Source: Methanosarcina flavescens
GTDB taxonomy: Archaea; Halobacteriota; Methanosarcinia; Methanosarcinales; Methanosarcinaceae
Assembly: GCF_001304615.2 (NCBI RefSeq)
Contig: NZ_CP032683.1
Location: forward strand, 868,001-932,000
Reading direction: 5' to 3'
DNA length: 64,000 nt
Shown here piece by piece: positions 5,046 to 54,822 of this stretch (within the stretch, counting starts at the first letter, position 1; each line of letters opens with the position of its first letter). The translations under genes were made by a program, and so were the position numbers. The notes under the pieces were generated by a model that ran no database searches, had not been told where the DNA came from, and saw only the letters and a list, made by a program, of their open reading frames with translations.

Positions 5046-7079
5046 TCAGACGATAAACAGAGGTGCAAACACAACCGCCACAATGCTCATGAGTTTTATG
5101 AGAATGTTGATTGACGGACCTGCTGTATCCTTAAAAGGATCTCCGACAGTATCGCCTGTTACACCTGCCTTATGAGCGTCCGAACCTTTTCCGCCGAAAT
5201 TTCCGGTTTCAATAAATTTCTTTGCGTTATCCCACGAACCGCCTGCATTGGACATTGTAATCGCAAGCGCAAAACCTGAGACTACAGAACCTGCGAGCAA
5301 TCCTCCAAGTGCGCCAGGACCGATTATGAGTCCAACAGCAAGAGGTGAAACAACTGCGAGTACGCCGGGTCCGATCATCTCTTTCAAGGCAGAGTGCGTT
5401 GAGATTGTGATACATTTACTGTAGTCAGGGTCAGCTTTGCCTTCCATAAGGCCTTTAATCTCCCTAAACTGTCTCCTAACTTCCATCACGACTTCTCCTG
5501 CCGCATTTCCTACAGCCAGAATGGTCATTGATGAGAAGAGGAAAGGTAGCATTGCACCGATGGTAAGCCCGATGAATACATCAGGGCTCATAACATCGAT
5601 AGCAGCGAGATTTACTGCAATGCCGTATGAAGAGAAGAGGGCAAGTGCCGTAAGGGCTGCTGAACCTATAGCAAAGCCTTTGCCGATAGCTGCAGTCGTA
5701 TTTCCTACCGCATCAAGTGTATCGGTAATCTCACGTACCTCTTTTTTCTGGTGAGACATCTCAGCAATCCCACCAGCGTTATCAGCCACTGGACCGTATG
5801 CATCAACCGACAGCGAAATCCCGAGAGTGGCAAGCATTCCAACGGCTGCAATGGCTATGCCGTAGAGGCCGGAAAGCGTGTATGCAATATAGATTGTAGC
5901 GCTGATGATGACAACAGGCCAGACGGTCGACTCCATCCCTTTTGCAAAACCTGTTATAATATTCGTAGCTGCACCGGTTTGACAGGAATCTGCAACAGTA
6001 CGGGTAGGCTTTTTTTCATACGAGGTATAGTACTCGGTAATCTGCCCGATAAGGAACCCGGAAACAAGCCCTGCAACACTTGCAAAGAAGACCTTTAATC
6101 CGTAATCTCCGAGAAGCTGAGATGTCACGAAATATGAGGCAATAACTGTAAGCACGATTGCTGCAATCAGTCCTATATTAAATGCCATATGAATTGCAGA
6201 TGCCTCGGTCTTGTTAGTGCGTACAAAAAAAGTACCTGCAACGGATGCAAGAATTCCAACAGCCGAAATCAACAGTGGAACCAGGATTACATTCTCAATT
6301 GGAACGCCGGGAAAAGTTGCTGCTGCGGTTGAGGCTGCAAGGAGCATTGTCGCTACGATCGAACCGACATAGGACTCATAGAGATCGGCTCCCATGCCCG
6401 CAATGTCTCCTACGTTGTCGCCCACATTGTCAGCAATTACAGCAGGATTTCTCGGATCGTCTTCAGGAATTCCGGCTTCCACCTTACCTACAAGGTCAGC
6501 CCCAACATCCGCAGCCTTGGTAAATATTCCGCCACCTACGCGCGCAAATAGAGCAATGGAAGAAGCTCCGAGTGAAAAGCCTGCAACGATATTCATAATG
6601 GTAGTATAATCGAGATCTGTATAATAGGTTGCAATAACTATAAATGAAGCAGATAGTCCGAGCAGGCCAAGACCCACAACGCTCATTCCCATAACCGTGC
6701 CTGATGCAAACGAAACTTTGAATGCTGGTCCAATGCCTCTTGTAGCAGCATTTGTTGTTCTGCCATTAGCTATAGTAGCTGTAAGCATCCCTACATACCC
6801 GGCTACTGCAGAAAACACTGCCCCGAAGACAAAGCATATTGCAGTGAGAATCCCATTTGGAAGAACTAATGCAATTAGAACTGAAAACAAAGCGACGAAT
6901 ACAGCAATTGCACGGTATTGTCTGTTAAGATAAACCATGGCGCCATGATGAATTGCCGCAGTAATTTTTTTGATAACATCGTTACCTTCGCCTTCTTTTT
7001 GGACATTTTTATAGGATATTCCTGCAAAAATCAAACCAATAACGGCACATATCGGTGCAAGGTAGATTAACACATCCAT
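5046..7079 (-). CDS. hppA: Membrane-bound ion-translocating pyrophosphatase (K+-dependent type)
   Basis: Integral membrane pump of 677 aa that couples PPi hydrolysis to Na+ and/or H+ export. The PPi site is intact: a [14 protein letters not shown] element followed by DDPRNP and [20 protein letters not shown], and near the C-terminus GGSWDNAKK and [11 protein letters not shown]. The [10 protein letters not shown] motif has Ala where potassium-independent enzymes have Lys, so this belongs to the K+-dependent class. Members of that class from Methanosarcina are known sodium pumps; specificity here is inferred. The frame is open to 7178, but ATG 7079 has GGAGGAAGG just upstream and is preferred. 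A decayed second pyrophosphatase lies divergently about 750 bp away. Confidence 0.95.
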
Positions 7080-44513: not shown

Positions 44514-44675
44514 GTGAACTTTAAGTGCGCAATCTGCGGAAAAGAGGAGGACTCCTTGCTCAGGACTAACCATAAAAAGTTAGGAGCCATAAAGCTCTGC
44601 TTAGGGTGCTGGTCTAAGGAACAGGGTAAAAACAATCTGCTTCCTTTAGAAGGGGGAAACAGGTGCTGCGGATAA
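44514..44675 (+). CDS. Tiny Cys-rich zinc-ribbon protein, copy B
   Basis: 53 aa with GTG start and GAGGT seven bases upstream. It reads FKCAICGKEEDSLLR, KKLGAIKLCLGCWSKE, then CCG at the end. It is a clear homologue of the 29210-29368 gene. Its 3' end overlaps the long N-terminal ORF of the next repressor, but the SD-supported repressor start at 44702 lies after its stop. It may be a small metal chaperone or sensor accompanying the permease. The family is not known to me. Confidence 0.7.
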   Translation: MNFKCAICGKEEDSLLRTNHKKLGAIKLCLGCWSKEQGKNNLLPLEGGNRCCG

Positions 44676-44701
44676 ATACGATAAAACAAAGGAGATCAAG
44701 T

Positions 44702-45091
44702 GTGAATAAAAGAAGGTGTGAAGTAGAAACCGAAAGATTGAAGCGTTTTATCCTTGATAAAGATCAGTTTGAATCAAGGTCGCAAAAACTCAGTTCTCTG
44801 GTGAATGGGTTAGATGAAGAAGCTTTATCCTTGGAGGTCAAAATTTTTAAGGCTCTCTCAGATACCAATCGCCTCAAAATTATAAAATTATTAAAGGAAG
44901 GAGAACTGTGTGCCTGTGAACTAACGGTTGTCCTTTCTAATTCTCAATCGACTGTTTCTCACCACCTCTCAGTACTGAAAAATGCCGGTATGATCAAAGA
45001 AAGGAAAGAAGGAAAGTGGTCTTATTTTCGCCTCTCGGATGGGGCAATAATTGAACTGCTTAATCAGGCTCAATTGCTTACAGACAGATGA
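44702..45091 (+). CDS. ArsR/SmtB-family repressor with N-terminal extension
   Basis: Protein of 129 aa from GTG 44702 (MNKRRCEVETERLKR), with GGAG upstream. About 35 extra residues precede the winged helix (FKALSDTNRLKIIKLLKEG, NSQSTVSHHLSVLKNAGMI). The ELCACEL motif in helix 3 is the classical ArsR cysteine pair for As(III)/Sb(III). It lies 153 bp before the permease and probably controls it. Confidence 0.9.
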   Translation: MNKRRCEVETERLKRFILDKDQFESRSQKLSSLVNGLDEEALSLEVKIFKALSDTNRLKIIKLLKEGELCACELTVVLSNSQSTVSHHLSVLKNAGMIKERKEGKWSYFRLSDGAIIELLNQAQLLTDR

Positions 45092-45207
45092 ACCGTGAGT
45101 AGATTTTTGTTTAAGAAATTGAATCAGAGGATAACTGAGCTCTTAAAAAAATACTCTTTGAAAATATCGAGCTTATAAAGACACTATTGTGGTAATTTTA
45201 GAATTCT

Positions 45208-45223
45208 GAGAGTTGTAACTCTC
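45208..45223. promoter_or_regulatory. 16-bp palindrome before the permease
   Basis: GAGAGTTGTAACTCTC, perfect arms, 21 bp before the permease ATG. It is a likely operator or small leader hairpin. Confidence 0.5.
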
Positions 45224-45244
45224 ATTAAGTAAAAGGGAGTAAAA

Positions 45245-46144
45245 ATGTTCTGGAATAATTTAGTTATGGCAACCAATTACTTCATTGAAATAGCCGTAGA
45301 GCTTACTGTTTTATTTATAGGGATAACTTTTCTAGTGGGATTGATTCAAGAGTATGTTCCAGACGAAACCATAAAAAAGGCCTTGGGAGGGAGGCACAAA
45401 GTTATAGGCAGTGTTCTTGGAGCAGGTTTTGGTGCCCTTACGCCCTTTTGCTCCTGCTCTACCATACCGCTTCTTCTGGGAATGCTCAATGCTGGTGTGC
45501 CTTTTGCCGCAGCAATGGCATTCCTGTTCTCATCCCCCTTGCTAAATCCAGTGATAATATCTTTATTCATCATCCTGTTGGGATGGAGGGTAGCTGCTCT
45601 TTACTTTGTCATCGTCTTCGTAGCTACAATTCTCATTGGTCTCTTGCTCGATAAGCTAGGCTTCTCCAGTCATGTTAAGCCGGCAGCCGTTATGAGAAGT
45701 TGCTGTGACAGTCAACAAGCTACAGACACCAAGTCTAGGATACAACGGTCTACGGGATTTGCAATGAACTTATTTCGCCAGCTGATGCCTTATTTACTTA
45801 TTGGGGCTAGCATCGGGGCGTTCATTCATGGGTTCGTACCTACAGAGATCATCTCCCGCCTAGCTGGGCCGAATAATCCTCTTGCAGTCCCTGTGGCTGC
45901 AGTTGTTGGTATTCCAATCTATATCCGAGCAGAGACTATGATTCCAATTGGGCTGGCGCTCACTGAGAAGGGAATGAGTTTGGGAGCCATTCTGGCATTG
46001 ATTATCGGAGGTGCTGGAGCCAGTATACCCGAACTGACGCTTCTCTCAGCCATATTCAAGAGGAAACTACTGGCTGCCTTTGTAGTAACCGTTTTTTCCA
46101 TAGCTGTGCTTGTAGGGTATTTGGTAAATTTAATTGTATTGTGA
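45245..46144 (+). CDS. Permease of the SO_0444/ArsP family
   Basis: Protein of 299 aa with about eight membrane segments. The motif TPFCSCSTIPLL matches CSCTTLPLF of the 27.5-kb permease. The second half repeats YIRAETMIPIGLALTEKGM. The central loop carries a CC pair (RSCCDSQQATDT). Family relatives export copper, zinc or organoarsenicals; the substrate here is inferred from the ArsR and arsM context. It ends at a strong bidirectional terminator. Confidence 0.85.
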   Translation: MFWNNLVMATNYFIEIAVELTVLFIGITFLVGLIQEYVPDETIKKALGGRHKVIGSVLGAGFGALTPFCSCSTIPLLLGMLNAGVPFAAAMAFLFSSPLLNPVIISLFIILLGWRVAALYFVIVFVATILIGLLLDKLGFSSHVKPAAVMRSCCDSQQATDTKSRIQRSTGFAMNLFRQLMPYLLIGASIGAFIHGFVPTEIISRLAGPNNPLAVPVAAVVGIPIYIRAETMIPIGLALTEKGMSLGAILALIIGGAGASIPELTLLSAIFKRKLLAAFVVTVFSIAVLVGYLVNLIVL

Positions 46145-46163
46145 GAACCATCAAGAATAATTA

Positions 46164-46207
46164 GAAATGATATCAGGCAGATATGATACTGAGCCTGGTA
46201 TCATTTC
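46164..46207. terminator. Bidirectional terminator between the permease and the arsC-like gene
   Basis: GAAATGATATCAGGC (46164-46178) pairs with GCCTGGTATCATTTC (46193-46207) over 15 positions (one G-T). The right arm overlaps the last codons of the arsC-like gene. Confidence 0.7.
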
Positions 46208-46665
46208 TCAAATGTCTGCAAGATCCAGCCTTTTATCTCATCCCTGATTCGCCGGAAGACTCTGAGCCGCTCCTCTTCTGATCCCACAACCACGGCAGGA
46301 TCCTCAAAACTTTTGTGAATTATTTCTCTTGCTTTGGGAGATTTGGTCGAGAGCTTCAGATTCGTAGTGCAGATAGGGCAAGTCACTTTAGCCAGATCAC
46401 AAACCGTAACTACTAAGTCAAATATAGTGTCCTGAAATTCTTGCGGAGTTTTAGAGCGTTGACTGGAGATATCGATATCGATTTCCTTCATGACTATAAT
46501 AGCATAAGGATTAACAGTTGTGGCTTCAATGCCGGCGCTGTAAGCCTCGTACCGATCTCCATAAATAGCTCTTAAAAGACCTTCTGCCATCTGTGACCTA
46601 GCTGAGTTATGAGTGCATAGAAAAAGGATCTTCTTTTTTTCCTGTGGTCCCATGTTTGTTACCAT
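46201..46665 (-). CDS. arsC: ArsC-like arsenate reductase / low-molecular-weight phosphatase fold
   Basis: Protein of 154 aa with the P-loop LCTHNSARSQMAEG (CX5R) near the N-terminus. A second and third Cys (TVCDLAKVTCPIC) could relay electrons as in thioredoxin-linked ArsC. The C-terminal Asp is in SFEDPA. The start is ATG 46665 or 46653. It reduces As(V) to As(III) for the efflux pump, or acts as a phosphatase. It lies at the 3' end of the minus-strand dsr gene group. Confidence 0.86.
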   Translation of the reverse strand: MVTNMGPQEKKKILFLCTHNSARSQMAEGLLRAIYGDRYEAYSAGIEATTVNPYAIIVMKEIDIDISSQRSKTPQEFQDTIFDLVVTVCDLAKVTCPICTTNLKLSTKSPKAREIIHKSFEDPAVVVGSEEERLRVFRRIRDEIKGWILQTFEK

Positions 46666-46769
46666 TTCAATATTATTGCACTTGATAATAGATCAGCACT
46701 GTGATTGTTCCTGCACTCGGCCTTCTGAATATTCGACAGACAAGAAGATTTAGTTCTACTTATTTAGTT

Positions 46770-47063
46770 CTACTTATCATCTTTTAGCTGCACTCTTGCC
46801 TCTTTCATTATTTCTTTCATCATCTCCCCTACAAGATTTGCTTTTTCACAATGAGAAGCCTCTTTTGGCTTGCAGTTCAGGAGAACGCTCATAAGTCTAT
46901 CAGCAATCTGATAAAATTTTATATCCTCAAGTCTGACTAGAAGTTCTGATAAGCTTTCACTAAACTCCCTACATTTATCATGGTTACAGACAGCCTGCTC
47001 ATGCAACTGGCAGACCGATTGCAGGTCTTTTATGATCTCTTTCGGGATGTTTGTCTCAACCAT
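46770..47063 (-). CDS. Unknown protein, 97 aa, Cys/His-rich helical
   Basis: It reads QSVCQLHEQAVCNHDKCREF and VLLNCKPKEASHCEKANLVG, five cysteines and several His spaced as in small helical metal-binding proteins. It lies between dsrH and the arsC-like gene with no terminator seen, so it is likely in the same transcript. I do not recognise the family. Confidence 0.6.
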   Translation of the reverse strand: MVETNIPKEIIKDLQSVCQLHEQAVCNHDKCREFSESLSELLVRLEDIKFYQIADRLMSVLLNCKPKEASHCEKANLVGEMMKEIMKEARVQLKDDK

Positions 47064-47191
47064 AGGGATAGGTCCTTATCATCACGAATTCTCAATAAGT
47101 TCAAGAAAAAGGTTGAAAGTATAAAGTGAAAACTGGCACTTTTAACTGCAAAATCAAAAAGCGTAGTCTCAAAATTGTAATGTCAGATATT

Positions 47192-47491
47192 TTAAAACGT
47201 ATATTCATGCCTGCAGTGTTCCATTATATCCTCAATAAAATCGGAGTAAAAGTCATCCGGGACAGTCACTTTTTCTCCTGCCATGATAGCTCTGGCCTCG
47301 AGGTCTTCTTTACATGCATAAACGTCGCACTCTGGCAGTTTTTCTATTCCGGTAAGCAGATTATAGACTCCATCGCCTGCAAGGTAGATTCTGGCTTTTC
47401 CGGAGCGTGCAGCCAGTTTAAGGCATAACTCCGATCTCGGACTGAAGGGAGGCTTTGTCAGCAGAAACACATCCAATTTTTCTTGTTTCAT
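47192..47491 (-). CDS. dsrH: DsrH/TusB-family sulfur-relay protein
   Basis: About 99 aa. ATG 47491 has GGATGAT upstream; TTG 47503 is also open. Features are a VFLLTKPPFSP start, ARIYLAGDGVYNLL and DVYACKEDLEARAI, the usual beta-alpha pattern of DsrEFH subunits. It is the third gene of dsrE-dsrF-dsrH. The Cys in YACKED is the likely persulfide site of the subunit. Confidence 0.8.
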   Translation of the reverse strand: MKQEKLDVFLLTKPPFSPRSELCLKLAARSGKARIYLAGDGVYNLLTGIEKLPECDVYACKEDLEARAIMAGEKVTVPDDFYSDFIEDIMEHCRHEYTF

Positions 47492-47527
47492 ATTATCATC
47501 CAATTAATCCCTAATCAGCAACTAGTA

Positions 47528-47872
47528 TTAAAACGCGATAACATAGGTTGAGCTTTCCATCACTTCGAAAAAATCTTCTTCGTCTGCCAGTTCTATAGTC
47601 TCTATCAAAGCTTGCCCTAAAAGGTTTCTGTCCACAAGCGAGGGTTCGTGCACAAGCACTCTCAACTCCCCATATGCGTAAAAAATGTCTTCAAGGTTTG
47701 GTAATCCAAGCTTTCTGCTGTCTTGACCCGCAATTGTAAGATAGACTCCATCTCCATAAAGGCCTAGAGTCACATCCATCTCATTAAGGCTCACTGCAGC
47801 TGCATTCAATGCTCCAAAAGCATTTTCACTGCCATACGGGGCTGTATCCAGCAGATAGAAGACTGATTTCAT
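47528..47872 (-). CDS. dsrF: DsrF/TusC-family sulfur-relay protein
   Basis: 114 aa. It begins MKSVFYLLDTAPYGSENAFG, with VTLGLYGDGVYLTIAGQD and LVDRNLLGQALIETIELADE. It is the structural subunit of the DsrEFH/TusBCD heterohexamer and lacks a Cys in the expected active position, as is normal for DsrF. SD GGAGGGTAGGATACA precedes the ATG. Confidence 0.83.
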   Translation of the reverse strand: MKSVFYLLDTAPYGSENAFGALNAAAVSLNEMDVTLGLYGDGVYLTIAGQDSRKLGLPNLEDIFYAYGELRVLVHEPSLVDRNLLGQALIETIELADEEDFFEVMESSTYVIAF

Positions 47873-47914
47873 TGTATCCTACCCTCCCAAAAAACGGATC
47901 TCATTGTTAAAATC

Positions 47915-48295
47915 TTATCTTGAAAGTGAAATTACTCTATCACTCATACTCAGCATTTCCGACAACTCATAAAGGCTGGTGATTCTTATTCCAGGGAAAT
48001 AGTCTTTGCAGTTACTTCCTTGTATAATCTCTTTTTCTGGAAGGTAGCCCCTTGCACCAGCACATCGTGCACAAGCTCGGACTATCGCTCCTTTTCCAGC
48101 AAGTTCAGAAAAAAGCTGTCCTGCATTGATAAAGAAGGCTGGATTTTGATCTTTTTTGGGAATATGCACTGCATCCAGGTAAAGGAATATATTTACTTTA
48201 TATTTTTTAAGTGCAGCCTCAGTGAGTTTGTAGGCAATCTCAGTGTATTCAGAAATATAAGGGCCATCTGTAAGCACTATTGTTAGCGTCTTCAA
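47915..48295 (-). CDS. dsrE: DsrE/TusD-family sulfur-transfer protein
   Basis: 126 aa, TTG start with GGAGGA. The conserved acceptor cysteine lies in VRACARCAGARGYLPE. A TLTIVLTDGPYISEY beginning matches DsrE. With DsrF and DsrH it forms a sulfur carrier that in bacteria passes persulfide sulfur between Tus/Dsr proteins. I see no DsrC, SirA or dsrAB in this window. It lies 38 bp after the ArsR-FeS gene. Confidence 0.87.
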   Translation of the reverse strand: MKTLTIVLTDGPYISEYTEIAYKLTEAALKKYKVNIFLYLDAVHIPKKDQNPAFFINAGQLFSELAGKGAIVRACARCAGARGYLPEKEIIQGSNCKDYFPGIRITSLYELSEMLSMSDRVISLSR

Positions 48296-48333
48296 GGCTT
48301 CCTCCGATTAAATAAAACGTTAGTAACTGAAGT

Positions 48334-49131
48334 TCAAATGTATGTAGCCAGAAATTGTAGACGCTCCAGATTGGTTGCATAATCTGGCTTTTTAAGCTGT
48401 GTACACATATCTAGACTGACCTGTCCTGCCATTAACCTTATGGTAAAGCTGTAACAGCCCTGTTCGCCGCACTCTTGACAGTTGGTCTGAGGCAGGTGAT
48501 TATATATATCCATTAGCTCGACCTTTATCTTTTCCCTGGGAGGTGGAGCAACTCCTTTTTTGATAGCTTCATTGATAGTATTTCTGAGGCTTTCAAGCTC
48601 TTTTTTTGCTTCCTCCTCATTTTTAACCATTCTCATGACTATTTTTCCACTACCATAAATAGTTGTCATGATTTCTCCTTTTTGAACTATCAAACTATCT
48701 TTTCTATCCGAGTAATTGCCTCTGGGAAAGAGAGGCTCAAGGATCTTTAAGGTCCCACCCAGCGGGGGAACCATGTTTGCAGCTACTCTTAATTTTGTGG
48801 AATCTGCTATACAGGGCAAAACCTGCCTGATCTCAACAATCTCCACAGGTTTTGCCTGAGAGAGGTCTTTAATCTCCTCAGTTTCTCTTTCTTTCTTATT
48901 TTTCAAGAAATTTCTGCCGTATTCACTTATTTTTACAGTCCCTTCTTCCAATTCGACTAGGCCTGCATCTTGCAAAATCTTCATATGGAAATCAAGCGTC
49001 TTTTTCCCGACTAAGCCTTCAATTTCCTCAACATCTCTAGCACCGTTTGCAAGGAAGTTAATTATTCTCCTTCGAGCCTTATTGGCCATAGCAAAATTCA
49101 CCAATTTTGTCTCACTCGTACCTCCTGACAT
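48334..49131 (-). CDS. ArsR-HTH fused to a four-cysteine Fe-S domain, paralogue 1
   Basis: Protein of 265 aa from ATG 49131 (MSGGTSETKLVNFAMAN), SD GAAGGTG; an upstream open frame to 49176 is discounted by comparison with the paralogue. The N-terminal winged helix is ETKLVNFAMANKARRRIINF and DFHMKILQDAGLVE. A middle domain of about 100 residues (KPVEIVEIRQVLPCIADS) is unknown. The C-terminus carries NCQECGEQGCYSF...MC, the C-x2-C-x4-C-x16-C Fe-S motif found in RnfB and corrinoid Fe-S proteins. It may be a redox- or iron-sulfur-sensing repressor. A TATCAA-N6-TTGATA operator lies upstream, and it precedes dsrE. Confidence 0.88.
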   Translation of the reverse strand: MSGGTSETKLVNFAMANKARRRIINFLANGARDVEEIEGLVGKKTLDFHMKILQDAGLVELEEGTVKISEYGRNFLKNKKERETEEIKDLSQAKPVEIVEIRQVLPCIADSTKLRVAANMVPPLGGTLKILEPLFPRGNYSDRKDSLIVQKGEIMTTIYGSGKIVMRMVKNEEEAKKELESLRNTINEAIKKGVAPPPREKIKVELMDIYNHLPQTNCQECGEQGCYSFTIRLMAGQVSLDMCTQLKKPDYATNLERLQFLATYI

Positions 49132-49142
49132 TTTTACACCTT

Positions 49143-49215
49143 CTAACACATTAAAGTCTAATTCTGCCCTTTTCAATTCAGCACATTAAAGTCTAATTCT
49201 GCCCTTTTCAATTCA
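49143..49215. repeat. 36-bp direct repeat upstream of paralogue 1
   Basis: The unit CACATTAAAGTCTAATTCTG and following CCCTTTTCAATTCAG occurs twice head to tail, between the ATG and the operator. Confidence 0.8.
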
Positions 49216-49312
49216 GCACATTATAATCTTTCTTTTGGAGTGAAACCTAATTATCCTAAGTTATTCCTACGATTAGTTATGAAGTCACGTCTATAAAAAC
49301 TCAAAAGCCAAA

Positions 49313-49330
49313 TATCAAAAAAGATTGATA
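49313..49330. promoter_or_regulatory. Operator TATCAA-N6-TTGATA upstream of paralogue 1
   Basis: TATCAA-AAAAGA-TTGATA, perfect arms, in a context (ATAAAAACTCAAA upstream) shared with the second paralogue's operator. Confidence 0.75.
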
Positions 49331-49487
49331 TAAGAATATTAAAACATTAAATTCTGTTGGAAGTGAAGTATGAGAAGTGTCAGAAGAAGTAGAAAGGAAA
49401 GACTTATGCAAATTCCCCCCACTTAATTGTCTAATTATTCAGTAGAACTTTTAGTTACGTAGATTGTAATTTTTAATTAGCGGTAGC

Positions 49488-50294
49488 TCAGATATAAGCA
49501 GTTAAAACCTGCAAATGTTCCTGGTTGGTTGCGTACTTTGGCTCATTAAGAGGTGTACACATATCAAGGGAGGCCTCTCCGCTCATGATTTTTATGGCAA
49601 AAGTATAGCAGCTCTGATCACCGCATTTGCCGCAGTTGGTTTGGGGCAGGTATTTATAGAGCTCCATGGGTTCAACCCTGATCTTCTCCCTGGGAGCAGG
49701 GGCGACGCCCTTTGCAATAGCCTCATTGATGATGTTTCTGAGATTTTCAAGCGCTTCTTTGGCCTCATCCTCATTTTTTATCATTGTCATGGTAACTTTT
49801 CCACTACCATAAATCGTTGTAATGATTTCTCCTTTTTGAACTATTAGTGCGTTTATTTTTTCTGAGTATCTTCCTCTAGGAAAGAGAGGCTCAAGAACCT
49901 TGAGGGTTCCGACAAGTGGAGGAGCAATATTTGCTATTACCCTAAATTTCGAAGAGTCTGCTATACAGGGCAGAAGCTGTCGAACTTCTACAATCTCCAC
50001 AGGCTTTGCCTGAGAGAGATCTGCATTCTTATCAGCATTCTTGTCTTCCTTGCCTTTCAGGAAATTTCTGCCATATTCACTTAAACTAGCAGTTTCCTCT
50101 CCTAACTTAATCAGGCTTGCCTGTTGCAAAAGCTTGAGATGAAAATCAAGCATTGTCTTCCCTACTTCCTCTCCAACTTCCTCGATACTTTTGTCTCCTG
50201 ACGATAAGAAGTTCATTATTTTCCGCCGGGTAGCGTTGGCCATAGCATTGTTTACCAGCTTTATCTCATTAGGATTTCCAGGCAATTTTAACAC
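49488..50294 (-). CDS. ArsR-HTH fused to a four-cysteine Fe-S domain, paralogue 2
   Basis: Protein of 268 aa, clearly paralogous to the 48334-49131 gene: EIKLVNNAMANATRRKIMNF, a highly similar middle domain (KPVEIVEVRQLLPCIADSSK), and TNCGKCGDQSCYTF ...MC at the C-terminus. The middle-domain Cys (LLPCIADS) is conserved in both and may add a ligand or a thiol. Its operator at 50424-50441 indicates autoregulation. Two tandem copies of such a regulator before a dsr operon is unusual. Confidence 0.88.
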   Translation of the reverse strand: MLKLPGNPNEIKLVNNAMANATRRKIMNFLSSGDKSIEEVGEEVGKTMLDFHLKLLQQASLIKLGEETASLSEYGRNFLKGKEDKNADKNADLSQAKPVEIVEVRQLLPCIADSSKFRVIANIAPPLVGTLKVLEPLFPRGRYSEKINALIVQKGEIITTIYGSGKVTMTMIKNEDEAKEALENLRNIINEAIAKGVAPAPREKIRVEPMELYKYLPQTNCGKCGDQSCYTFAIKIMSGEASLDMCTPLNEPKYATNQEHLQVLTAYI

Positions 50295-50687
50295 CTACAA
50301 GAGTTATGAAAATTTGATTTTCATTATTTCTTGATTATTTATTCATGTCAGATATCTCTCTCTGAGGAAGTTAGTTTTCACTAATTAATTGTTAGTTTAC
50401 TTCATAAAAACTCAAATGTTGGATATCAAAAAAGATTGATACGAATTATTAATACACATCAACTATTCTTGATACCAACCACACGGGTTTTTAGAATTTG
50501 AATCTCTAATGTTGATTATATCGCCTTAGAATACAATGGGTTAAACAAATAATTAGTTTCTTAAAATATAAATGTTTGTAAATTTAAATTCTTATAAAAT
50601 TACAGCACAAAATAACTTGATTAGGAAATTTACCTTAATCTAAATTTTTATTTATATATTATACTTACCAAACAGGAGGAGATTTAA
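50295..50687. other. Intergenic region between two divergent genes
   Basis: Contains the operator at 50424-50441. No further gene. A second minus-strand promoter may be near 50340. Confidence 0.4.
50424..50441. promoter_or_regulatory. Operator TATCAA-N6-TTGATA upstream of paralogue 2
   Basis: TATCAA-AAAAGA-TTGATA; the spacer is identical to that at 49313-49330. Confidence 0.75.
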
Positions 50688-51026
50688 ATGTCATTTTTGA
50701 ACGAAATATTGCCTGAAACTGCAGAAGCTTTCAGACAGGTGAGAAATTCTATTTTCAAAGATGGTTTTCTGAATCTCAAAACTAAAGAATTGATTGCTAT
50801 CGCCTCTTCAGTACTTATGCGCTGTCAGTTCTGCGTTGACACGCATTCACAAAGAGCGATTACTGCAGGAGCCACAAAGGAGGAAATCGCAGAAGCTATT
50901 TCAGTTGCAATGTTTGTTGCTGCTGGTTCACAGATAGGATGGACAAATATATACGGAGAAAATATATATAAAATCTTTGAAAAGAATAAGGAAGAAAAGG
51001 ACTGCTGCTGTTGTTGCAAGGACTAA
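50688..51026 (+). CDS. AhpD/carboxymuconolactone-decarboxylase-like protein with a Cys5 tail
   Basis: 112 aa. The core is MRCQFCVDTHSQRAITAGAT, with the family CxxC plus His, and SQIGWTNIYG. Such proteins reduce peroxides or disulfides. The tail EEKDCCCCCKD, five adjacent cysteines, is unusual and could bind soft metals or arsenic. A decayed paralogue lies at 35.6 kb. Confidence 0.85.
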   Translation: MSFLNEILPETAEAFRQVRNSIFKDGFLNLKTKELIAIASSVLMRCQFCVDTHSQRAITAGATKEEIAEAISVAMFVAAGSQIGWTNIYGENIYKIFEKNKEEKDCCCCCKD

Positions 51027-51079
51027 AAATTCCATTTATTGTAATTTCTAAATCTTTATCTCTCTAATCTAAGTAAAGT

Positions 51080-51439
51080 TCATTCAGATTTTTTTTCTTG
51101 TAGATGTGCAATAATGTTAAAAATATCTACAAATTCAGGGTTCAACCTGTAAAAATGCCATTTTGATCTGCTGTAGGCTTCGACAACCCCACAGTCTTTC
51201 AGAATTGCCAGGTGGTAGGAAACCAAGTTCTGCATCTCGTTTAGTTTAAATATCAGTTCGCAAACGCAGTGATCTCTCTGAGTGAGAAAGTAAGCAATTT
51301 TTAGCCTTAACGGATGCCCAAGAGCGCTGAATACCTCACTTGCTTTCTTTATTTCATTGTCTGGAAAATCTATTTCCTGGAGCATCCTTTCTTCCCATTC
51401 CTTTTTTTTCTCTGGATCCACAGGACAACAATAGCTCAT
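51080..51439 (-). CDS. ArsR-family repressor
   Basis: 119 aa. It starts MSYCCPVDPEKKKEW, with CC near the N-terminus, and later FSALGHPLRLKIAYFLTQRDHCVCELIFKL (CVC pair, shown in parts). A recognition helix is LVSYHLAILKDCGVV. A TATCAA-N6-TTGATA site lies 39 bp upstream of the start. It is a thiol- or metal-responsive repressor of the redox genes nearby. Confidence 0.9.
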   Translation of the reverse strand: MSYCCPVDPEKKKEWEERMLQEIDFPDNEIKKASEVFSALGHPLRLKIAYFLTQRDHCVCELIFKLNEMQNLVSYHLAILKDCGVVEAYSRSKWHFYRLNPEFVDIFNIIAHLQEKKSE

Positions 51440-51477
51440 AAATAAAAGAAGTTAAGCCTTCTAAATAAGGTTTTTCA

Positions 51478-51495
51478 TATCAATTTTGTTTGATA
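51478..51495. promoter_or_regulatory. Operator TATCAA-N6-TTGATA upstream of the 51080 repressor
   Basis: TATCAA-TTTTGT-TTGATA. Same arms as the two dsr-side operators, different spacer. Confidence 0.75.
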
Positions 51496-51558
51496 TTTAA
51501 CATAATATTATTAAAATAGTCTAACTACTTCTAGACTTCTCAAGTCTTAAATAATATT

Positions 51559-51776
51559 ATTTCAAGAGAGTTCGCAAAAAAGTTTGGAGTAAGATCCATT
51601 CCAGATACCTGTATTATTGCGGATATTGAAGGCAAGAAATACATATATAATATATACGGCAGGACGGCAGCAAAAACCAAGAAAGAATAGGCGCAAGGTT
51701 CCTGGGTGTTACCGACAAAGAAACCCTTTCAGAAACTCTTAAAAAAGCTATTGAATTTAGGGAGGCAGAGGGTTAA
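51559..51776 (+). pseudogene. Decayed thioredoxin-like gene (C-terminal fragment)
   Basis: EFAKKFGVRSIPDTCIIADI is the cis-Pro region of a thioredoxin fold; the frame then shifts near 51680 to ERIGARFLGVTDKETLSET, ending AIEFREAEG and TAA at 51774-51776. The N-terminal half with the CxxC is missing. Three bases later the ccdA-like pseudogene begins, so this was a redox operon. Confidence 0.65.
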
Positions 51777-51779
51777 AAA

Positions 51780-52423
51780 ATGATTTCCAATTTTTTCCCA
51801 ATTGCAGCTTTTTTTGCAGGGATAGTAAGCGTGCTTTCTCCATGCATCCTGCAATAATTCCTGTAGTTTTTGTATACTCAACTGGAAAAGAAAAGCTTAG
51901 ACAGCTTGCGATAGTATCAGGTTTGTCCCTTTCCTTCACTTCCATGGAGAGTTATTAATTCAATTTTCGGGGCAACTCTTACAGCTTATCTAGGCTACCT
52001 CAACGTTTTGTAGAAGCGCTCCTTGTCACAATGGGCATTTCGCTACTCTTTGATTTAAATACATTCAATATTTTTGGAAATTTTTCAGCCCTCGCAAATC
52101 CTAAGCAAGAGGGTCTTTTGGGAGGGTTTCTACCTGGTCTCTCACTGGGGATTATCTGGCTACCATGTGTCAGCCCAGTACTTGGCTCAATCCTTACAAT
52201 GGTTGCTGTTTCAGGCAAGGCTGGTTATGGAGCACTAATGCTTTTCATCTCTATTCCCTTGGTTTTTCTGTTCCAATGCTTCTTGTTGCATATTCTGCAA
52301 GCTTTCCCTCATCAAAGCTTCTGAAAGCTTCAAGATACGGCTTTCCGTTAAAAAATTACAGGCTTTGTAATTCTGGGAGTAGGCCTCTATATGATCTATC
52401 AAAATCATTTTAACGGTTTTTAA
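51780..52423 (+). pseudogene. Decayed CcdA/DsbD-family thiol transporter gene
   Basis: MISNFFPIAAFFAGIVSVLS then PCIL opens the family's first helix (VLSPCILP). Later pieces in other frames are VFVYSTGKEKLRQLAIVSG, VTMGISLLFDLNTF, GLSLGIIWLPCVSPVLGS, and GVGLYMIYQNHFNGF to TAA at 52421. There are at least three frameshifts. The intact protein would carry reducing equivalents across the membrane. Confidence 0.7.
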
Positions 52424-52538
52424 TACATGAAAAGTATGGACCTTCGCACTCATAAGTTTTGCAAGTTCTGCCCCTTGAATACGGTGTTTTGACTACGCTT
52501 AGATCAATCCATACGATAACGGTCAGTAACTAAAACAA

Positions 52539-52571
52539 ATGAGTATATTTAAATAAAATATGAGTATATTT
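52539..52571. promoter_or_regulatory. Direct repeats before an ArsR gene
   Basis: ATGAGTATATTT at 52539-52550 and 52560-52571, spaced 21 bp centre to centre (two helical turns). They overlap the TATA region. It is probably a repressor site distinct from the TATCAA type. Confidence 0.6.
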
Positions 52572-52590
52572 GCATATAATCATATAGGCG

Positions 52591-52938
52591 GTGGTGCCTA
52601 CGGACATTGTTTATATATTTAAGGCCCTGGCTGATGAAAACAGGATAAGGATACTGAATCTTTTAAAAAACGGAGAATTATGTGTCTGTAATATTGAGGC
52701 GGTATTAGGCATTAAGCAATCCAACGCTTCCAGGCACCTGAACAGACTGAAAATGGCAGGAATCATCGTCTCTGAAAAAAAATCCCAATGGGTCTATTAT
52801 CGACTCAATGATCCATTATTTCTTAGATTTCCCTTCCTCTCAATGGTCATTAACGACGAGATTGAGAAAATAAGCGTTTGTAAAGACGATTTAGTACTAC
52901 TGGAAAAGCTCAAAGCGAGCGGTAGCTCTTGCAATTGA
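52591..52938 (+). CDS. arsR: ArsR-family repressor of the acr3 gene
   Basis: 115 aa. It carries the classic ArsR motif ELCVCNIEAVLGIKQSNASR in helix 3, a well-known As(III)-binding Cys pair, plus FKALADENRIRILNLLKNG. It lies 44 bp before acr3. Start GTG 52591 or 52594. Direct repeats upstream are its likely operator. Confidence 0.92.
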   Translation: MVPTDIVYIFKALADENRIRILNLLKNGELCVCNIEAVLGIKQSNASRHLNRLKMAGIIVSEKKSQWVYYRLNDPLFLRFPFLSMVINDEIEKISVCKDDLVLLEKLKASGSSCN

Positions 52939-52991
52939 TTAAGAAATATTTTCATGATAAATCAACTTACTAAAAATCGAGGGTGTTTGTT

Positions 52992-54041
52992 TTGGAAAAA
53001 TCAGTTGTATCGAAACTGTCATTTCTAAATCGTTATTTAACCTTGTGGATCTTTCTGGCCATGTTTATCGGCGTAACCCTGGGTTTTGTTTATCCGGGCT
53101 TTGCTGAGTTTCTAAAGAGCCTATCTATTGGCACCACATCCATTCCTATCGCTATTGGTTTAATAGTTATGATGTATCCTCCCCTGGCACGGGTTAAATA
53201 TGAAGAGCTGGGCATGGTATTCCGGAATCATAAAGTATTAGGCTTATCCCTGTTACAGAACTGGATCATTGGCCCAATTCTGATGTTTATTCTGGCGATT
53301 ATTTTCCTAAGGAATTATCCGGAATACATGGTAGGTGTCATTCTAATCGGTCTTGCAAGATGTATCGCCATGGTGATTGTCTGGAACACCCTGGCAGAAG
53401 GGGATAATGAGTATGCTGCTGCTCTAGTTGCCTTCAATTCGATCTTTCAGTTAGTCTTCTACTCTGTTTTCGCTTATTTCTTCATAACTGTGCTGCCTGA
53501 ATGGTTAGGGCTTAGTGGTATGGAAATAGATGTCTCTATGGGAGAAGTTGCCCAGAGTGTAGCAATCTATCTCGGAATTCCTTTTGCGGCTGGATTTTTA
53601 ACCCGTTATTTCCTGCGGCCCTCAAAAGGAGCTGAATGGTACGATAAAAAATTCGTTCCTAAAACAGGTCCAATTTCACTTTATGCTCTACTGTTTACAA
53701 TTATTGTAATGTTTTCTTTGAAAGGTGAATATATTGTTGCCTTACCTTTAGACGTTGTAAGAATTGCAATTCCTCTTCTGATTTACTTCGCAGTTATGTT
53801 CGGTATTTCCTTTTTTATATCTAAAAAAGTAGGCATTAACTATGAACAGACAACATCTCTTGCTTTTACCGCGGCTAGTAATAACTTCGAACTAGCAATT
53901 GCCGTAGCAGTGGCGGTTTTCGGCATCAACTCAGGGCAGGCATTCGCAGCAGTAGTTGGTCCTCTAATTGAAGTACCCGTAATGATTGGACTTGTCAATG
54001 TTGCACTCTACTGGAGAAGGAAATACTTTATTAAAAATTAA
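52992..54041 (+). CDS. acr3: ACR3-type arsenite efflux permease
   Basis: 349 aa from TTG 52992 ([20 protein letters not shown]) with GAGGG about eight bases upstream; GTG 52983 sits within the SD. It has about ten membrane segments ([41 protein letters not shown], whose Cys is the ACR3 catalytic thiol, and [19 protein letters not shown]). It exports As(III) using the ion gradient. It is the main resistance gene of the island. Confidence 0.93.
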
Positions 54042-54062
54042 GAAGCAGCTTGAGAAATAATA

Positions 54063-54095
54063 ATTGCGGCCTTAGCAGAAACCAGGTTGAAATAA
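54063..54095 (+). repeat. Near-copy of a hydantoinase-gene 3' segment
   Basis: TTGCGGCCTTAGCAGAAACC and following AGGTTGAAAT match 42312-42341 with two mismatches. It reads NCGLSRNQVEIK in the same frame as CGLSGNQVEISV in the hydantoinase gene. It lies just after acr3 and marks one end of the island. Confidence 0.75.
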
Positions 54096-54154
54096 AAGGA
54101 ACTGAGAATAAACACTTATGTCTTGATACAATATCAATTTTACCTACACAACAA

Positions 54155-54568
54155 TCAGGCTTCTTCTATAGCTCTTATAATTTTATCTACATATTCGAGT
54201 TTCAAATCTGAGGGTCTTGTTTTTTCAATCCCGAGCTCCGTTACCATCAAATATGCATCTGCTTTCATGCCGGCTTCCTCGAGCTTTTTTGTGGCACAGC
54301 AGTCCGTACAGCCATCAAGGGCTAAAATTCTGAAGTCGTCAGATATTGCATCCTCAACCGCATCAACCCCTTTTGGGGCAGCTGCGGCTCTGTACAGATC
54401 AGGTCTCCGGAAGGCAAGAGCTGATGCTGCCTGCATCGTAAGTTTTCCTGTGTTAGAAAGACCAGAACAGGCAAAAATGAGCGTATTTTTCCTTTTTCCG
54501 GATGTCTTTTCCGTTCCATCCGACCTGCCGGATAGAGAGTCTGAGGATTCCGTTCCTGATGGCTTCAT
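54155..54568 (-). CDS. DGC-domain zinc-binding protein
   Basis: 137 aa. The DGCTDCCATKK motif (residues about 85-95) with an earlier FACSGLSNTGKLTMQ matches the DGC (putative zinc-binding) family. A charged N-terminal extension precedes (SLSGRSDGTEKTSGKRKN). It is often found beside arsenic and selenium genes. It ends 114 bp from acr3, convergent. Confidence 0.82.
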   Translation of the reverse strand: MKPSGTESSDSLSGRSDGTEKTSGKRKNTLIFACSGLSNTGKLTMQAASALAFRRPDLYRAAAAPKGVDAVEDAISDDFRILALDGCTDCCATKKLEEAGMKADAYLMVTELGIEKTRPSDLKLEYVDKIIRAIEEA

Positions 54569-54822
54569 AGCTGTTACAACCCTAATGATAGATATAATCT
54601 TTAATGAGAGGTAGAAATTTTTTACGAGAAATGCAACCTTTAACGAGAAATTATTTCAAAAAAGGTTGAAATGGAAACTACGCGAGAACTGATATAATTT
54701 CCGGTATTGCCGCCAGATACCAGTTCAGTTTACCTGCCCTTTTTCAAAAAACGTTAAAAGTCCCAAGCACGCTAAAAATAATAGAGGAATAAAATTACTC
54801 AAGTTCAATCAGTTAAATTCAA

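Follow-up and report, generated by a model that had tools for sequence, protein, structure and literature searches.

What is a pair of ArsR-type proteins, each ending in an iron-sulfur motif, doing directly ahead of a dsrEFH sulfur-relay operon in a methanogen? The question arises in a 64,000-nucleotide stretch of Methanosarcina flavescens DNA (contig NZ_CP032683.1, positions 868,001 to 932,000), which we call the window and in whose coordinates all features are given. The two genes lie in tandem on the minus strand, both ORFs intact, and encode protein A (49488–50294, 268 residues) and its paralogue protein B (48334–49176, 280 residues from a TTG codon), which are 63% identical; orthologues place the likely true start of B at an ATG near 49131. 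Just upstream of B, at 49145–49220, is a tandem duplication of ~36 bp (attcagcacattaaagtctaattctgcccttttca repeated). A sequence-only reading of the locus had described each protein as an ArsR winged helix followed by a domain of unknown kind and an Fe-S motif, and had proposed a general redox, Fe-S or sulfide sensor that controls dsrEFH through a TATCAA site. Its account of the fusion was borne out. Its middle domain proved recognizable, and both its proposed signal and its operator need revision.

The proteins comprise three domains. At the N-terminus of A is an ArsR-type winged helix (residues 6–90; 50025–50279), which retains ArsR features, with 61% conservation in its recognition region against 52% over its full length, and contains no cysteine. 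The Pfam HTH_5 profile matches B with 24 bits, over the 22-bit cut-off, and A with 15.5 bits, below it. The C-terminal Fe-S domain (residues 210–250 of A, 49545–49667; 48391–48513 in B) carries exactly the motif C-x2-C-x4-C-x16-C and matches PF04060 strongly in both proteins, with 49.3 bits in A and 40.9 bits in B against a cut-off of 23. As the sequence-only reading held, this domain is of the RnfB and corrinoid Fe-S protein (CFeSP) type; its best match in a search of PDB sequences is the N-terminus of CFeSP gamma (4djd and 2h9a, E 2.7e-8 to 3e-7, the lower value for 4djd). Between the two lies a domain of ~95 residues (100–195 of A; 49710–49997) that bears the motif LPCIADS in both proteins, with Cys110 of A at 49965–49967. 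This middle domain is a half-repeat of the TATA-binding protein (TBP) fold: in A it matches PF00352 with 26 bits against a cut-off of 22.9, and both repeats of the M. jannaschii TBP (2z8u) align onto one and the same stretch of it. From the N- to the C-terminus, the PDB sequence matches are thus 1y0u, a putative arsenical-resistance repressor, then 2z8u, then CFeSP gamma. An AlphaFold2 model of A has a mean pLDDT of 78 and a pTM of 0.45, so that the placement of the domains relative to one another is unreliable. By structure comparison, modelled residues 6–89 superpose on CzrA with a Z-score of 12.4, and residues 102–193 on 2z8u with a Z-score of 11.9 and an rmsd of 1.8 over 87 residues. As Pfam, PDB sequence search and structure each found them independently, we regard the three domains as real.

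The predicted resemblance to archaeal TBP is limited to the fold of one half-repeat. Unlike TBP, A and B have a single repeat rather than two in tandem, by both sequence and model, and they are not general factors. In our alignments, with positions placed by eye using what we take to be the TBP motif, the intercalating phenylalanine pair is not kept, the equivalent residues being I/K/M and Y/H. TATA-like binding by A or B is therefore unlikely. The model also shows an extra leading strand, residues 100–109, before the half-repeat, which may cap the edge where a second repeat would pack. In view of this strand and of the absent DNA-kinking phenylalanines, we do not propose a dimeric pseudo-TBP saddle, which we had considered.

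A and B contain exactly five cysteines each, namely the four predicted Fe-S ligands and Cys110. Conservation of the C-terminal cysteines in orthologues, on which the novelty of the pair had been made to depend, is strong: each of the four occurs in 53 of 55 aligned sequences, the exceptions being truncated or decaying copies, and Cys110 occurs in all 55. Among the same 55 members, HTH_5 was matched by 44, PF00352 by 30 and PF04060 by 53. The fusion occurs in nearly all Methanosarcina species examined, in Methanothrix and in some Methanolobus-like genomes; conservation across these groups indicates that the fusion is not a chance event. A and B derive from a single duplication in the Methanosarcina lineage, and Methanothrix has mostly one copy. 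Individual copies have broken, with A disrupted in genome G266, B in G359, and Cys229 replaced by arginine in one B (locus L042), as might be expected if the proteins were decaying or ordinary ArsR paralogues whose Fe-S tail is a passenger of no special role. We consider this very improbable, given that all five cysteines persist unchanged across wide divergence and different architectures, and that linkage to dsrEFH is strict.

Downstream of B, on the same strand, follow dsrE/tusD-like (47915–48295), dsrF/tusC-like (47528–47872, identified by profile searches) and dsrH/tusB (47192–47503) genes, with gaps of 38 bp from B to dsrE, 42 bp from dsrE to dsrF and 24 bp from dsrF to dsrH. The next gene after dsrH, here and in most Methanosarcina, encodes a 97-residue protein with no Pfam match (46770–47063, minus strand). 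Only the TusB model (TIGR03011) scores above its cut-off, the TusC and TusD models falling below their equivalog cut-offs; we assign the genes to the DsrEFH/TusBCD family on the presence of the three subunits in order and of the sulfur-carrying cysteine, Cys78, of DsrE. The residue corresponds to the one characterized biochemically in A. vinosum DsrE (PMC3397948). In the window protein it is the first cysteine of a CxxC motif (CARC), the second having no counterpart in A. vinosum DsrE.

The linkage between this relay and the TBP–Fe-S module extends well beyond the window. Across 80 genomes, which are related to one another so that the counts are not independent events, dsrE occurs in 41, none of which lacks the module, 40 having the fusion and one a stand-alone protein whose gene overlaps dsrE by a single base; 35 genomes lack both, and in the remaining four, of which one is a fragmented draft, the fusion occurs in the absence of dsrE. 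In G290, one of these four and devoid of dsrEFH, an intact A is followed by a 51-codon ORF (6472–6624 of locus L121) in which the beginning of DsrE runs into the end of DsrH, a dsrE–dsrH deletion scar. In the named loci, A or B lies no more than 200 bp upstream of dsrE in 40 of 41 copies, the exception being at a contig end.

The surroundings point to arsenic. From 44663 to 54568, the window is an arsenic-resistance island throughout. On the plus strand, a canonical ArsR (ArsR1, 44663–45091, found by profile searches) precedes an ArsP-type permease (45245–46144, PF03773). An ArsC-like low-molecular-weight phosphatase, an arsenate reductase of the thioredoxin type scoring below its equivalog cut-off, follows on the minus strand (46201–46665). 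Beyond the dsrEFH and A/B genes lie CMD, a second canonical ArsR with the motif DHCVCEL (ArsR2, 51080–51439, minus strand), a third (ArsR3, 52591–52938, plus strand, also from profile searches), the arsenite efflux transporter acr3 (52983–54041, plus strand; TIGR00832, 465 bits against a cut-off of 282.8) and a DGC-domain protein. The acr3 gene, the ArsC-like enzyme, the ArsP-type permease and all three canonical ArsR genes thus fall within 10 kb. Most of the genomes with A have only one or two acr3 copies, and yet in 27 of 36 the distance from acr3 to A is no more than 20 kb; in ten, acr3 is the gene immediately preceding A. Methanothrix has the operon order arsR (with a CVC motif), exported rhodanese, acr3, A, dsrE, dsrF, dsrH, and another species has A, dsrEFH, ArsC, ArsM. 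In Thioalkalivibrio, DsrE/F-like genes respond to arsenite (PMC6620896). Arsenic or sulfur stress accordingly fits this setting better than the general redox, Fe-S or sulfide signal first proposed. The rhodanese-domain protein between arsR and acr3 in Methanothrix, apparently exported (L123:5161–6054, checked against Pfam; also L058:7898–8905 and L069:5441–6532), adds a second sulfur-transfer protein to that operon.

The same setting bears on the operator. Motif searches place the palindrome TATCAA-N6-TTGATA in the promoters of A (50424–50441) and B (49313–49330) and 39 bp upstream of ArsR2 (51478–51495), with a second copy, carrying one mismatch, at 50457–50474. Exact copies number five in the complete 3.28-Mb genome, three of them in the A/B locus. 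In the promoter of A, a TATA-like TTTTTAT (50404–50410, minus strand) lies 13 nt downstream of the palindrome, and the B promoter has a TTTTTAT at 49293–49299 (minus strand). In Methanosarcina the spacing of 13 nt between the palindrome and TTTTTA(T/A) is conserved, and the palindrome stands in the A promoter of essentially all loci. We at first favoured the palindrome as the site of A and B, as had the sequence-only reading, since both genes have it upstream. Its distribution extends beyond dsrEFH, however: it is found also ahead of ArsP, CMD, ArsR1-like and ArsR2 genes, and in eight copies, taken from seven genomes, the distance to ArsR2 is exactly 39 bp. Moreover, in L048 and in G194, a genome with A and B intact and ArsR2 missing, the promoter of A has TTTCAA in place of TATCAA, yet the recognition helix of A in both is nearly identical to that of TATCAA species. 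The spread over several island genes, the fixed spacing to ArsR2 and the change of operator beside an almost unchanged helix together indicate that the palindrome is probably not the A/B site. G194 is the main discriminating genome for the link between ArsR2 and the palindrome; G266 does not discriminate, as its A is broken, its palindrome degenerate (one mismatch) and its ArsR2 absent too. The simplest reading of this circumstantial evidence is that canonical ArsR proteins, ArsR2 being the likely binder of TATCAA, bind these palindromes and hold A/B-dsrEFH in their regulon.

Among palindromes of the form NNNCAA-N6-TTGNNN, TATCAA (61) and TTTCAA (44) dominate these islands across Methanosarcina, the next class numbering 4. 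The window itself has a member of the second class, TTTCAA-N6-TTGAAA, at 54654–54671, 85 bp upstream of the DGC-domain gene (54155–54568).

These observations weigh on the role first assigned to A and B, that of primary, direct regulators of dsrEFH which sense sulfide, redox or Fe-S status and bind the TATCAA palindrome. Their near-constant position beside dsrE and the palindrome ahead of A would suit such regulators. The distribution of the palindrome, including its fixed place before ArsR2, the TTTCAA promoters with a hardly altered A helix, and the arsenic context do not, and we judge this role decidedly unlikely.

Relatives without the winged helix cast further light on the family. Other lineages of the same phylum encode proteins of ~180 residues that consist of the TBP-like and Fe-S parts only. 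In L097 such a gene stands directly before dsrEFH; in L109, from a further family, it closes an operon of acr3, a permease and thioredoxin. An alignment of 18 sequences that takes in both types, with identities down to 23%, shows the same five cysteines and Arg118 in every member, which identifies the TBP–Fe-S unit as the core of the family. It has a role of its own, as the relatives without a winged helix indicate, and the winged helix is probably an addition to it. In other archaeal groups (L098, L100, L101 and L104), stand-alone genes adjoin TauE/SafE exporters or universal stress proteins, the neighbour in L098 being TauE. We asked whether a TAG codon concealed a winged helix of the L097 protein and found none upstream in any frame. 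In L106, a stand-alone TBP–Fe-S gene is followed by a 70-residue winged-helix protein, suggestive of a Rosetta-stone pair; its match scores weakly (E 0.039) and is truncated by the contig end.

The relatives raise the main rival to a regulatory role, in which A and B would serve above all as protein partners for DsrEFH. The Fe-S domain would then donate or accept electrons, as do the PF04060-type domains of CFeSP and RnfB, and Cys110 would accept sulfane sulfur or As(III) in the handling of thioarsenic species or persulfide, with the winged helix serving for dimerisation or local DNA tethering. The stand-alone genes beside dsrEFH, in the acr3–permease–thioredoxin operon and beside TauE are consistent with such a partner, as is the conservation by part, which is higher in the TBP (63%) and Fe-S (65%) domains than in the winged helix (52%). 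Against it, Methanosarcinales have retained the winged helix throughout, with its recognition helix intact, and the duplication included it along with the rest; we also identified no enzyme active site in A or B. We regard a partner role as possible but, on balance, doubtful.

Several known systems resemble A and B in part. By layout, the nearest methanogen regulator is the redox regulator MsvR of M. acetivorans (PMC3729527), which likewise joins an N-terminal HTH to a C-terminal, cysteine-bearing sensor domain and whose DNA binding is redox-dependent. MsvR differs in having a V4R domain and neither a TBP fold nor the C-x2-C-x4-C-x16-C motif; A and B gave no Pfam match to V4R and scored 13.4 bits with the MsvR model NF053755, whose cut-off is 220. 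The predicted winged-helix fold of A is close to many ArsR/SmtB proteins (Z-scores of 10–12), including the sulfide sensor SqrR and As(III)-sensing ArsR, but its lack of cysteine leaves A and B without a classical, CVC-type ArsR site, and the NCBIfam metalloregulator model gave them 23–26 bits, below its cut-off of 55. Any sensing must consequently lie in the added domains. Like A and B, factors of the SufR/IscR type combine a winged helix with a cysteine-bound Fe-S cluster as a switch, but they have a different Fe-S domain with other cysteine spacing and no TBP half-repeat. With CFeSP gamma (CdhE/AcsC), RnfB and PF04060, A and B share cysteine spacing and sequence over ~40 residues, the Fe-S domain alone, and they lack the corrinoid and Rnf parts (56.8 bits, where the cut-off is 306). 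Other proteins, small archaeal ones among them, are known to contain single TBP domains; TBP-fold domains outside TBP are few, and we know of none that forms part of a winged-helix regulator or is fused to an Fe-S domain. The genes downstream of B are relatives of DsrEFH/TusBCD, with the sulfur-carrying DsrE cysteine (PMC3397948), but here they belong to arsenic islands, have a three-domain partner of their own and lack dsrAB alongside. The component kinds are already known, and it is their combination that is unusual: in agreement with the sequence-only reading, we found no description of an ArsR–half-TBP–Fe-S architecture in the literature searched.

We propose, at about even confidence, that A and B are second-tier Fe-S/thiol sensors within an arsenic-induced sulfur-relay operon. 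Their cluster content, DNA binding, signal and direction of regulation we infer as follows. The island's canonical As(III)-sensing ArsR repressors would induce the A-B-dsrEFH operon. The winged helix of A and B would provide DNA binding and dimerisation, and the CFeSP/RnfB-type domain would hold a [4Fe-4S] cluster that, with the invariant Cys110, may report thiol state, the signal being As(III), persulfide or cluster damage by oxidants. A and B would then adjust expression of the DsrEFH relay, which may move sulfur during arsenic stress, and of neighbouring genes. The winged helix would have been added, in Methanosarcinales, to an older stand-alone TBP–Fe-S protein. Three observations speak against second-tier regulators: the stand-alone proteins of L097 and L109, by which the core function need not be transcriptional; the obvious operator, which seems to belong to another ArsR; and the mid-operon position of A in Methanothrix, unusual for a master regulator. 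A bolder proposal, which we think unlikely, is that the half-TBP and a low-potential Fe-S cluster form one sensor–effector module of a transcription factor, modulating archaeal transcription under thioarsenic or sulfane-sulfur stress, possibly through TBP/TFB contacts, and obligatorily coupled to a DsrEFH relay that would itself belong to arsenic detoxification.

The linkage of A and B to dsrEFH, usually near arsenic-resistance genes, points to an arsenic–sulfur stress system not studied before. Methanogens take part in the arsenic cycling of paddy soils, and the strict pairing within arsenic islands suggests a testable role for DsrEFH in these organisms, which are not sulfur oxidisers, as a relay in their arsenic, perhaps thioarsenic, stress. 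Methanosarcina is genetically tractable, so that this role can be tested directly.
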